Shown: positions 28,677 through 47,607 of the stretch, in pieces
Position numbering within the stretch: the stretch's first letter is position 1
Layout of the letters: each line of letters starts with the position of its first letter
NCBI GenBank assembly: GCA_003009755.1
Contig: PXUB01000045.1
Span: 1 to 64,000 of the forward strand
Direction of reading: 5' to 3'
DNA: 64,000 nt
From: Thermoplasmatales archaeon SW_10_69_26
GTDB taxonomy: Archaea; Thermoplasmatota; SW-10-69-26
Notes under the pieces: model-generated
Database searches by the model: none
What the model was told of the DNA's origin: nothing
What the model saw: the letters and a program-made list of their open reading frames with translations, nothing else
Position numbers and translations under genes: made by a program

Positions 28677-29978
28677 CTACGGCTGGATGCGGTTCGGGGT
28701 GCGCGGGAACGGGACCGCGTCGCGGACGTGGTCGAGGTTGCACAGGTAGGCGACGAAGCGCTCGACGCCGAGCCCGAACCCGCTGTGGGGGACGCTGCCG
28801 TATTCGCGGAGATCGAGGAACCACTCGTAGTCCTCGACGTCCTCGCCCTCGGCCTCGAGCCGGCGCTCGACCAGGTCGAGGTCGGTGGAGCGCTCGCTGC
28901 CGCCGATCAGCTCGCCGTAGCCTTCCGGGCCGAGCAGGTCGGCGCACTTGGCGTACACCTCGTCCTCGTCCTGGGCCATGTAGAAGGCCTTCATCTTGGC
29001 CGGGAAGTGCGTGACGAAGACGAAGCCGTCGAACATGCGGGCCAGCGCGCGCTCGTCGGGGGCGCCGAAGTCCTCGCCCCAGGAGATGTCGTGGGACTCC
29101 TCCTGCAGGAGCTCGACGGTTTCGTCGTAGGTGACGCGGTCGAAGGGGGGAGCGACCTCGGCCAGCGTGGCGGGGTCGCGGCCCAGCTGTTCGACCTGCT
29201 CGCCGGCGCGTTCGGCGACGGCGTTGCAGGCGTGGGCGACGAGCTGTTCCTGGATCTCGATGTTCTCCTCGTTGTCGCACCAGGCCTGCTCGGCCTCGAG
29301 GTGCCAGTACTCGGTCAGGTGCCGCGGTGTGCGGGACTTCTCGGCGCGGAAGCTGGGCGCCAGGCACCAGACCCGCTCGAGCGAGTAGATCATCGCCTCG
29401 AGGTACATCTGGCTGGACTGGGTCAGGTAGGCCGGCTCCTCGAAGTACTCGAGCTCGAACACGTTGGCCCCGCCCTCGGCCGCGTTCTTCGTCAAGATCG
29501 ACGGCCAGACCTGCCAGAAGTCCTCCTCGGTGAACCACTCGCGGACCGCGTCCATCGCGGTGTGGCGGACCTTGGCGACGTCCGTCAGCTCCTGGCTTCG
29601 CAGCCACAGGTGCCGGTGGTCGAGCTCGTGCTCGATGCCCTGGTCCTCGTACAGGGGGACGTCCGGGCTCTCGCCGACCTCCGCGAAGCCGGTGACCTGC
29701 AGCTCGTACCCCTCGGGGGCGCGCTCGTCCTCCTCGACGACGCCGGTGACGCGCACGCTGGCCTCGAAGTCGGTCGTCTCGGCCTCGGCGAAGACCTCCT
29801 CGCCGACCTTGTCCTTCTTGACGGTGCACTGGAGGACGCCGGTGGCGTCGCGCACGACGGCGAACACGATCCCGCCGGTCGACCGGTGGCGGTGGATCCA
29901 TCCCTGGATGAGGATCTCCTCGCCCGTGTGCTGGCCGTCGAGGATCGATCCGATCTTCACGCGTGGGACGTCGGGCAT
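28677..29978 (-). CDS. asnS: Asparaginyl-tRNA synthetase
   Basis: This is a class IIb aminoacyl-tRNA synthetase of 433 aa. It has an N-terminal OB anticodon-binding domain (about 15-110, LIQGWIHRHRSTGGIVFAVV). The catalytic domain has motif 2 APSFRAEKSRTPRHLTEYWHLEAE (about 215) and motif 3 GFGLGVERFVAY (about 400). The motif 2 context EYWHLEAEQAW is typical of AsnRS and differs from archaeal AspRS, which has EFTxxDxE. A TATA-like CTTCAAAC (minus strand, 30003-30010) is centred 28 nt before the ATG, so the transcript is probably leaderless and starts just beside the hairpin array. Confidence 0.9.
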   Translation of the reverse strand: MPDVPRVKIGSILDGQHTGEEILIQGWIHRHRSTGGIVFAVVRDATGVLQCTVKKDKVGEEVFAEAETTDFEASVRVTGVVEEDERAPEGYELQVTGFAEVGESPDVPLYEDQGIEHELDHRHLWLRSQELTDVAKVRHTAMDAVREWFTEEDFWQVWPSILTKNAAEGGANVFELEYFEEPAYLTQSSQMYLEAMIYSLERVWCLAPSFRAEKSRTPRHLTEYWHLEAEQAWCDNEENIEIQEQLVAHACNAVAERAGEQVEQLGRDPATLAEVAPPFDRVTYDETVELLQEESHDISWGEDFGAPDERALARMFDGFVFVTHFPAKMKAFYMAQDEDEVYAKCADLLGPEGYGELIGGSERSTDLDLVERRLEAEGEDVEDYEWFLDLREYGSVPHSGFGLGVERFVAYLCNLDHVRDAVPFPRTPNRIQP

Positions 29979-30013: not shown

Positions 30014-30141
30014 TCGGCAGAGACCGCTCGTCATCGGGGACACCGTGGACACGGCACGCGGTCTCTGCCGAGAGCCCGACCGACCACAGAGACCGCCGAG
30101 GTCGGGCGAATCCGGAGACCGGCAACACCGCACGGTCTCCG
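30014..30141 (+). ncRNA. Three-stem-loop module, copy I (putative structured RNA)
   Basis: SL1 is TCGGCAGAGACCGC (30014-30027) paired with 30058-30071: 14 perfect pairs and a 30-nt loop that can itself fold (CCGT/ACGG). SL2 is GCCCGACC/GGTCGGGC (30074-30081/30100-30107) with an 18-nt loop starting GACC. SL3 is CGGAGACCG/CGGTCTCCG (30113-30121/30133-30141) with an 11-nt loop. The linker GAATC precedes SL3. Module copy II at 38041-38168 has the same order and spacing with different stem sequences. The strand is not proven. Confidence 0.6.
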
Positions 30142-30503
30142 AAAACGACACCGCACACGATCCCTACCGAGAGGACGACCGACCGCAGCCACCACAGAGG
30201 CCGTCCGAATCGCGAGGGACGAGCCACCAGGCTCGTCTCGAGTCCGCCCGACGCACGGCCTCGGATTCGTTCGGGAAGCAAAGCTACCCTCACCGAGCAC
30301 GAACGCGAGCGCCACGCCGACCACGACAACCGAGCGAGCGTTCGTACGAAGCCCGAGACCAAGCCTTGACTCTCGAAGGGCGGAAGGGCGCCGGGTCTCG
30401 GCCCGGGGAGAGCACCGCTCAACCCCGAGACCGCCCGCCTTCGTCGACGGTCGAGCGTTCCCTCAAACGATGCATCCCCACAGCCTTTGCCGCCATCGTT
30501 TGA
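30142..30503. repeat. Continuing hairpin array
   Basis: After the three-stem module the inverted repeats continue: 30173-30180/30199-30206 (7 of 8 pairs, 18-nt loop starting GACCGCAG as in SL2), 30218-30225/30230-30237 (8 bp, ACCA loop), 30239-30246/30262-30269 (8 pairs, one G-T), 30299-30306/30338-30345 (8 bp), 30353-30360/30394-30401 (8 bp), 30404-30408/30423-30427 enclosing GAGC/GCTC, and 30463-30472/30494-30503 (10 perfect pairs, just before the next gene). No reading frame here looks like protein. Confidence 0.65.
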
Positions 30504-30512
30504 TCACCGGGT

Positions 30513-31049
30513 ATGCGATGGCTTGGGATCGCTCTCGCGGCGGCGATGGTGACGAGCGGGTGCATCGGGATCGGTGCCGAGGACCAGGCCCAGCCGACGA
30601 GCGCGTCGACGCCGACGACTGACGAGAGCGAGACCTGGACGCAGGAGACCAGCGTCGACCTCGGCTGGATCGTGGCAGCCGGCACCCACACGGCCGCCGG
30701 GGATACGATCGTCGGTGTTCGCTCGCACGACCGCTGCCCGGGCGCGTCGTTCGTCGTCCCGGCCGGGACCTCGACCGTCGCGATCTCGTTCGATGCCCCC
30801 ACCGTGGACGACGGGGTCGGGTCCTACACGGTAGCCATCGGGTCCCCGGACGCTGTCACCTACCTCAACCCGCCAGCCTCGGATCCCGCCTTCGAGGACG
30901 AGGACCCGGTCGCCGGTCCGTGGTCGATCGAGGTGAAGCCCAACGGTGCCGCCCTGAACCAGGTGTGGAGCTTCGACATCGAGCTGGAGGGGGAAGGCCC
31001 GGATCCAGGGGCCTTGGATCCCGTCAAGGACCGGGACTGCCTCCTGTGA
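30513..31049 (+). CDS. Small lipoprotein of unknown function
   Basis: This is a 178-aa exported protein: signal peptide with lipobox TSGC (Cys about 17), a Thr/Ser/Glu-rich spacer (about 22-50), then a beta-rich domain (about 50-165) with two cysteines (DRCPG and the terminal DRDCLL) that could form a disulphide. I do not recognise a family. It begins 9 nt after a 10-bp perfect inverted repeat, so that repeat could act on its transcription. Confidence 0.6.
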   Translation: MRWLGIALAAAMVTSGCIGIGAEDQAQPTSASTPTTDESETWTQETSVDLGWIVAAGTHTAAGDTIVGVRSHDRCPGASFVVPAGTSTVAISFDAPTVDDGVGSYTVAIGSPDAVTYLNPPASDPAFEDEDPVAGPWSIEVKPNGAALNQVWSFDIELEGEGPDPGALDPVKDRDCLL

Positions 31050-38040: not shown

Positions 38041-38168
38041 CGGCAGAGATCGGCCATCACCCGCGGGACCTCGCGGTGACGGCTGGGCGGCTCTGCCGGG
38101 CGCACGCCCGACCGCGGGCATAGCCGAGGGCGTGCATATCCGGACACCGGTAAAACGGGCCGTCTCCG
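38041..38168 (+). ncRNA. Three-stem-loop module, copy II (putative structured RNA)
   Basis: SL1 is CGGCAGAG/CTCTGCCG (38041-38048/38091-38098), enclosing a second stack GCC-a-TCAC-c-CGCG / CGCG-GTGA-c-GGC. SL2 is GCACGCCC/GGGCGTGC (38102-38109/38128-38135) with an 18-nt loop GACCGCGGGC..., matching the 18-nt GACCACAGAG... loop of copy I. SL3 is CGGACACCG/CCGTCTCCG (around 38141-38168, two mismatches), preceded by ATATC. Element lengths and linkers match copy I (30014-30141) almost exactly while the SL2 stem differs at several compensated positions. Confidence 0.6.
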
Positions 38169-46416: not shown

Positions 46417-47607
46417 ATGCGTCGGAACGCAGGGATGGCTGTGCTCGTGGTTGCGCTGTTGACCGCCGGGTGGGGCCCGATCGCATCGGGCGCCCAGACG
46501 ACGGCGACGGGACCGGACCTCGTCGTCGGGAGCGTGCTGGTGCAGCCCAGCGAGCCCGAGAGCGGTGAGCGGATCAAATTCTACGCGAACGTGACCAACG
46601 AGGGCAACGAGTCGGCGGACTCCTTCTCGATCGTTCTCGAGTTGCACGACGCGAACAGCTCGGCCTACGAACCCATCCGCAACGTGACCGTGGAGACGCT
46701 GGCGCCTGGCAATCTCACGAGCGTGCGCTCCGACTTCACGCTGTCCGAGGGCCACTACGAGATCCACGCCATCGCCGACGAGGGCGACGACGTGAACGAG
46801 ACCGACGAGCAGAACAACATGGCCGTGGAGACGTTCCAGGTGACCCAGTCCGACGATCCCGCCAACCTCGCCGCCCAGGCCTACGTCCGCGATGGGGCGG
46901 TCGGCGAGCCGACCGAGGCCCGCTACCGCGTGTCGAACACCGGCCACGGGGACGCGGGAGCCTCCGACGTCGAGGTGCGCCTCGACGGCGACGTGATCGA
47001 CCGTCAGCGGATCGGTAGCCTCGATGCAGGCATGTCGGTGTCGTGGACGGACACGCTGGGCCCCTTCGAGGAGCCCGGGTCCCACCGGGTCGCCCTGATC
47101 GCCGACGCCGACGACGAGGTGAGCGAGTCCTACGAGCGGGACAACCGGGACATCGAACGCTTCGAGATCCTCGCGTTCCCCGACCCGGCCGTGACGGCGC
47201 TGACCGTGGACAAGAACCGTGTGCGCACGGACGCGGCGACGGGGCCGGCGAACCCGATCGCAGGCCAGGACGTGGCGGTCACGGTCGAGAACATCGGCCA
47301 GGGCGAGGTGGAGAGCTTCACCGAGGTCCACGTCGAGGCCTGTCCGGAGGACGGAGCCGTGCACCTCCCGCCGCTACGGGCGACCTGCGACCGGATCGAG
47401 CACACCTACCTGGGGCCCTCGGAGGTCGAGCACGGGACGACGATCGAGGCCGAGTGGGACACGACCGGGAAGGCCGGCGACTGGACGGTGTGCGCCTACC
47501 TCGAGAACGAGTCCCTCCAGACGGACCGCACGAACGACGAGCGCTGCCAGGACACGTTCGTCGCCGTCGGCGGCACCGGCCTGGGCGGGATCGCGGCGTT
47601 CGGGTGA
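46417..47607 (+). CDS. Secreted CARDB-repeat protein
   Basis: The 396-aa protein has a signal peptide (MAVLVVALLTAGWGPIASGA) and three CARDB-type immunoglobulin-like domains (about 35-135, 140-240, 245-375). Each has the family pattern of NxG early and DxxNEVxExDExNN late (VNETDEQNNM, VSESYERDNR). The third domain has Cys pairs. Surface adhesion or matrix roles are usual for such domains. A start at ATG 46417 is chosen; GTG 46414 is also possible. Confidence 0.8.
   Translation: MRRNAGMAVLVVALLTAGWGPIASGAQTTATGPDLVVGSVLVQPSEPESGERIKFYANVTNEGNESADSFSIVLELHDANSSAYEPIRNVTVETLAPGNLTSVRSDFTLSEGHYEIHAIADEGDDVNETDEQNNMAVETFQVTQSDDPANLAAQAYVRDGAVGEPTEARYRVSNTGHGDAGASDVEVRLDGDVIDRQRIGSLDAGMSVSWTDTLGPFEEPGSHRVALIADADDEVSESYERDNRDIERFEILAFPDPAVTALTVDKNRVRTDAATGPANPIAGQDVAVTVENIGQGEVESFTEVHVEACPEDGAVHLPPLRATCDRIEHTYLGPSEVEHGTTIEAEWDTTGKAGDWTVCAYLENESLQTDRTNDERCQDTFVAVGGTGLGGIAAFG

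Follow-up and report, generated by a model that had tools for sequence, protein, structure and literature searches.

Hairpin array between two divergent genes

In the window, the 64-kb stretch of DNA that was analyzed as a whole, a dense array of hairpins occupies positions 30014–30503 between the genes for AsnRS and a predicted lipoprotein-like protein (Table 1). It starts 36 nt before the AsnRS start (29978); on the other side, as given in the preliminary description, 9 nt separate it from the ATG at 30513. The perfect stems of 14, 8, 9, 8, 8, 8 and 10 bp listed in that description were all located at these lengths, and two further overlapping alternative stems are present in the same interval. 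When stems of at least 8 bp with loops of 3–40 nt are counted, the interval contains nine stems, seven of them non-overlapping, with 148 nt in arms. Such a density had been judged too high for chance, with dinucleotide shuffles named as the control; in 1000 of these the mean was 0.44 stems and the maximum was 3, and none equalled the values of the array. It is the densest 491-nt stretch within the 64 kb, and its single-strand folding is more stable than that of shuffled sequences on both strands (z = −4.1 for the plus strand and −2.9 for the minus strand). The non-coding appearance that had been noted is borne out by a codon-usage gene model, which calls no gene between 29979 and 30545. Mechanical open reading frames do run across the array.

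Density far above chance and a non-coding appearance are therefore the parts of the earlier interpretation that stood. The view that the array belongs to the upstream regions of the AsnRS and lipoprotein genes found no support, as the modules belong to a family that is dispersed at the 3′ ends of tRNA genes, at the 3′ ends of other genes and at other intergenic sites. The array is the densest in the window and yet not unique, since the genome contains other hairpin-rich intergenic regions (up to eight stems), several of which share sequence with it. No hairpin array is found upstream of AsnRS in the nearest named relative, a Thermoplasmata archaeon (PWVY01000048.1) that was found through AsnRS at 74% identity and that bears the isolate name CSSed11, a name used for samples of soda-lake sediment. 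Elsewhere in the window, ARAGORN calls a tRNA-Arg(tcg) at 47034–47109, yet the window has no Rfam tRNA match and the call is probably false.

Table 1. Hairpins, repeat copies and flanking genes in the window
Feature	Position	Strand	Description
X hairpin, unit 1	30014..30071	+	14-bp perfect stem, 30-nt loop; stem and loop sizes and loop consensus CATCGGGGACCTCG.. recur at other loci
Y hairpin, unit 1, with feet GAGA and GAATC	30070..30112	+	stem 30074–30107, 8 bp, 18-nt loop; covariance model R1, E 1.0e-13 (own genome)
X-type hairpin, unit 2	30113..30141	+	9-bp stem CGGAGACCG, 11-nt loop; similar at L009:6925–6951, L011:7132–7164 and L074
Diverged tandem copy (76%) of 30048–30117, repeat unit	30147..30216	+	offset 99 nt; direct-repeat family D1
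Y hairpin, unit 2, with feet GAGA and GAATC	30169..30211	+	R1 match 30169–30212, E 3.8e-13
Small hairpin	30218..30237	+	8-bp stem, 4-nt loop
Hairpin of a second Y-like subtype, GCACGAACGC..GCGTTCGTAC	30299..30345	+	8-bp perfect stem; subtype also at L009, L014, L038 and L045
X-type hairpin	30353..30401	+	8-bp perfect stem; region ~75% identical to the array at L014:3644–3932
Degenerate direct repeat of 30020–30041 (77%), remnant of a further unit	30427..30448	+	direct-repeat family D4
Last hairpin of the array	30463..30503	+	10-bp stem, 21-nt loop
Second X-Y unit copy in the window	38041..38141	+	R1 match 38098–38141, E 1.6e-11; X stem 38041–38098
AsnRS gene, flanking the array	28677..29978	−	Pfam tRNA-synt_2, E 4.9e-73
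Predicted lipoprotein-like gene, flanking the array	30513..31049	+	no Pfam family

A dispersed unit of two hairpins

In aligned copies, the repeat unit consists of hairpin X, the tetranucleotide GAGA, hairpin Y and the pentanucleotide GAATC, after which the next X follows; it measures about 99 nt. The loop of Y reads GACCGC..ACCGCCGA, and the internal 99-nt duplication in the window (30048–30117/30147–30216) corresponds to one X-Y unit. A DNA search with the array in the window's own genome (G000, a 2.8-Mb Thermoplasmata draft that is 95% complete, in which the window is contig C45) gave ten other matches with identities of 70–83%, and those inspected in detail are intergenic and are themselves hairpin arrays. 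The window array is assigned to this family by the identity of its sequence and modules with those of the other arrays. In a 361-kb sample, the density of intergenic stems is approximately twice that of shuffled sequences, and 35 intergenic regions share sequence among themselves. A covariance model of Y has 25 matches in G000 at E < 1e-6 and 30 at E < 0.01, and none in six relatives of the same class. One Y subfamily is thus represented by 25–30 copies, and further subtypes exist besides. A 28-nt DNA match to the array region in the genome G003 appears inside a coding gene and is probably due to chance.

The stems of Y vary on both arms. In an alignment of 14 copies, 94.6% of the pairs are standard, and the covariation score of 0.339 exceeds those of all 500 shuffles (0.090) and of all slid registers (at most 0.060). 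When 23 copies with a mean identity of 73% are considered, 175 of the 184 pair cells (~95%) are Watson-Crick, with two G-U against three A-C pairs. The absence of a G-U strand bias suggests, on the basis of small numbers, that pairing in Y is kept at the level of DNA or through copying of an arm, and not by selection on RNA. The X loops have a consensus that is common to the window and several gene-anchored copies, and the X stems differ.

Three contigs of G000 (C3, C6 and C26) start inside or beside X-Y arrays; the assembly has therefore probably cut these arrays short. Both array-bearing genomes, G000 and G002, are drafts, and individual arrays may contain assembly errors.

Copies of gene ends within the arrays

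Related units lie immediately downstream of genes, most of all tRNA genes, whose 3′ ends they repeat. At tRNA genes, an intact tRNA ending in T (the last ~16–18 nt of the tRNA) is followed by a loop, the reverse complement of T, one or more hairpins and a second, direct T. Full units read tRNA, loop, reverse complement of T, partial GGTTCGATC, X, GA, Y, GA and AATCC..tRNA end, and because they end in this manner, the GAGA and GAATC feet of most arrays, including that of the window, look like remnants of a T-loop. In the surroundings of Y copies, the first X hairpin often takes the 3′ end of the neighboring gene as its first arm, for example at three tRNA-Gly genes, and the second arm, located outside the gene, is the exact reverse complement of the gene end. 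At the tRNA-Gly sites and at ends of coding sequences, the reverse complement of T directly precedes Y. The window array sits between two divergent genes and has no target gene at its left end.

A test that was run independently of Y searched downstream of the tRNA for copies of its end that were 11 nt or longer, inverted ones up to a distance of 200 nt and direct ones up to 300 nt, the 11-nt threshold having been set after the pattern was first seen. Among the 42 tRNA 3′ ends of G000, 19 have the inverted copy, 20 the direct copy, 25 either and 14 both, and the pattern is missing at 17. The corresponding values were 1.1% for shuffled downstream DNA (binomial P about 6e-38) and 6/41 (15%) for the 5′ side of the tRNAs. 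Most direct copies run from the T-loop (AATCC; −16 to −18) to the tRNA end or close to it; inverted copies often start at GTTCRAAT. Spacing is regular, with the second T often at +92 to +118, and tandem expansion is visible at loci L079, L100, L102 and L150. At several different tRNAs (L074, L079, L081, L090 and L011), the antisense T-loop carries the same change and reads GATGAGAAC instead of GATTCGAAC.

The order of T, reverse complement of T, Y and T recurs in G002, which belongs to a different family within the class and whose Y hairpins form a family of their own; 14 of the 27 tRNA genes examined there reach the 11-nt threshold. In nine other genomes, for which the best-scoring tRNAs and not all tRNAs were taken, none of 53 did so (0/23 in G001, G003 and G004, and 0/30 in six more genomes). 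At one G002 locus (L157, C22:93200–93900), a tRNA 3′ end occurs three times, and two dissimilar inserts of ~40 nt lie between these copies, an arrangement that is superficially repeat-spacer-like; each insert carries its own hairpins and an antisense tRNA end.

Coding genes can take the place of the tRNA. An antisense copy of the gene end is located just downstream of the genes for AspRS (L045), a Cys/Met-metabolism enzyme (L047), a ChsH2-like OB protein (L014), a 4Fe-4S protein (L033) and an alpha/beta hydrolase (L051), and at L046. Arms that overlap the stop codon at L031, L041, L043 and L054 are weaker evidence for copying, because part of the arm is element sequence. Across the sample, such cases are rare: stems of at least 11 bp were found at 7 of 327 coding-sequence 3′ ends and at 3 of 331 5′ ends, compared with none in shuffled sequences in both cases. 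At L051 (contig C19 of G000), the end of the hydrolase gene (..GFIEEVSA stop) is repeated several times in tandem together with Y-like hairpins, up to the next gene.

Origin of the units and comparison with known systems

For dispersed palindromic repeats, common as they are, an explanation of their origin is often lacking. In the present case, the target sequence is preserved in both orientations at many sites; this would link the formation of the repeats to a defined event at the tRNA T-loop and opens the mechanism to experiment. We favor, with a probability of approximately 0.5, a hairpin-based, non-autonomous element for which the T-loop/3′ end of tRNA genes is the insertion site and whose stem takes up a copy of this target; its mobility, enzyme and mechanism are presumed. 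Such an element would act through single-stranded or hairpin DNA and would be directed to the T-loop consensus TTCRAATC, as well as to some similar sites at the ends of coding genes. A staggered event of ~17 bp would leave the direct repeat, and one arm of the stem would be rewritten by copying of the target, so that the stem matches each new site. The arrays would be lengthened afterwards by tandem duplication. Some copies, including those of the window, would now lie, through movement or by being left behind, where no target gene can be recognized; on this reading, the array in the window is an orphan that consists of tandem copies of the dispersed non-coding hairpin pair. If correct, this mechanism explains how stems change on both sides without G-U intermediates, as an arm would be copied from the other arm or from the target and not selected base by base. 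No empty/filled pair of one site was found, and we therefore only infer that the units move.

The X-Y units are about 0.1 kb long and contain no genes and no integrase. RAYT/Y1 transposase, reverse transcriptase and Cas1 were rejected as mobilizers because their genes are absent from G000: searches limited to this genome gave no match for Y1_Tnp (PF01797; positive controls matched) or for reverse transcriptase (PF00078), the enzyme of retroelements such as group II introns and retrons, and Cas1 was found in neither G000 nor G002 (it is present in G001 and G003). IS110 transposases are present in G000 and G002, and they were set aside as mobilizers since neither of the two loci inspected has a hairpin array next to it. 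An IS1595/ISXO2-type transposase gene is found at L015:3614–4639 (G000:C47), in an element with ends GGTGCTGA..TCAGCACC that interrupts an array between an X and a Y hairpin and whose insertion duplicated 8 bp, CTCGCGAG; similar ends adjoin units at L016 and L048. G000 also contains three tyrosine recombinases, each beside a tRNA gene. At L098 (G000:C2:31000–40500), a stretch of ~4.5 kb after tRNA-Gly(CCC) has X-Y units sharing the tRNA end at both of its ends and contains a split tyrosine recombinase and a methyltransferase-like fragment, so that it looks like an integrated element with an X-Y unit as, or next to, its attachment site. Neither the tyrosine recombinases nor IS110 nor the IS1595-type element is linked by the data to the X-Y units.

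The main rival, which we consider unlikely, dispenses with a mobile element and invokes serial replicative template switching at tRNA genes (DUP-INV-DUP, from T to the opposite strand and back) followed by slippage. The succession of T, inverted T and T is the pattern expected of a double switch, tandem expansion at L079, L100, L102 and L150 speaks in its favor, and stems that are Watson-Crick-only without G-U bias fit re-copying of an arm. However, switching leaves unexplained why Y and its feet are conserved at 25–30 sites, including coding-sequence ends and gene-free sites, and it is also at odds with the regular spacing (second T often at +92 to +118) and with the absence of the pattern from the tRNAs taken from the nine other genomes, although all of these have tRNA genes. 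Minimal integrative elements or att-site relics of tyrosine recombinases, with the tRNA T-loop and 3′ end as attB, are an improbable source. Integration of this kind typically leaves the tRNA 3′ end directly repeated, each of the three recombinases in the genome adjoins a tRNA gene, and X-Y units bound the integrase-containing ~4.5-kb stretch at tRNA-Gly(CCC). Nevertheless, a few site-specific integrases would have to serve ~25 different tRNAs and coding-sequence ends, each with a unit carrying the matching tRNA end; moreover, the inverted T is foreign to this mechanism and the units carry no gene.

It is very unlikely that the hairpins are a functional RNA or transcription signal (a terminator, a 3′-end stabilizer or a small RNA) selected at gene 3′ ends. 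Many arrays do lie directly after genes, with stable folds and conserved loops, but there is no G-U excess on either strand (two versus three), the window array lies between divergent gene starts, and 17 of 42 tRNAs, as well as most relatives, lack the pattern. T-run terminators are lacking, a bacterial terminator and promoter scan returned nothing, and the window has no Rfam match at the gathering score, a permissive search of the array region giving chance-level matches only. A REP/BIME-type repeat mobilized by a RAYT transposase would account for short, dispersed, often clustered intergenic palindromes, yet it is hardly credible here, given that PF01797 is unmatched in the genome, the feet are GAGA/GAATC and not GTAG or CGTC, and target-derived arms are not a REP feature. 

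Returning to the non-autonomous element that copies its target, we consider it possible, at slightly less than even odds, that it represents a new class of mobile DNA, one whose stem is given a new sequence by the element at every insertion. Without the help of Cas1, Y1 transposase or reverse transcriptase, the element would join the tRNA T-loop/3′ end, duplicate ~17 bp of the target and write the reverse complement of the target into its hairpin. It would exist, with Y hairpins that differ, in two or more families of a single archaeal class.

The tRNA-end copying pattern could not be matched to any known repeat or mobile element in the open-licence literature, where searches for archaeal hairpin repeats associated with tRNAs yielded no counterpart. 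Short, dispersed, mostly intergenic hairpins that are often paired or clustered and that show complementary stem changes are also found among REP/BIME/REPIN sequences, which are defined by a GTAG or CGTC tetranucleotide at the foot of the hairpin (PMC3733652). The X-Y units have no such tag and no RAYT gene; they form a longer two-hairpin unit, and one arm is copied from the target gene. Mitochondrial double-hairpin and repetitive hairpin-forming elements of sponges and fungi have spread in intergenic DNA with no known enzyme (PMC2800124). Some of them are double, and the X-Y units are likewise dispersed pairs of adjacent hairpins, though only putatively mobile; in the sponge elements, the stems are conserved and the loops vary, whereas the X-Y units show compensated stem changes and a tRNA-derived inverted arm.

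Casposons use a Cas1 integrase to insert at tRNA 3′ ends with a 14–15-bp target duplication, and because the casposase of A. boonei recognizes a T-loop motif, TCAAATC, at a tRNA 3′ end (PMC6614799), the reading of such a site by an integrase appears realistic. The X-Y units share the site at the tRNA 3′ end; their direct repeats, many of them 14–18 nt, extend from the T-loop to the tRNA end and start further upstream than the A. boonei duplication. Unlike casposons, they are non-coding units of ~0.1 kb with an inverted copy of the target, in genomes that both lack Cas1. The ends of IS608 are laid out as target, linker, target-complementary sequence and hairpin. The reverse complement of T before Y resembles this target-complementary guide 5′ of a hairpin in layout only, as the complementarity covers 11–18 nt instead of a tetranucleotide and differs at each site, and no Y1 transposase was found in G000. 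IS608, of the IS200/IS605 group, chooses its target by base pairing (PMC5934647). Integrative elements that target tRNA genes likewise leave the stretch between the T-loop and the end of the tRNA gene as a direct repeat (20 of 42 tRNAs here, at least 11 nt), whereas the X-Y units have no integrase and many different tRNAs are hit in one genome. In summary, the X-Y units lack a defining feature of REP, of casposons and of IS608, and each of the systems compared, namely REP/BIME, mitochondrial hairpin elements, casposons, IS608-type ends and tRNA-targeting elements, shares one aspect with them.
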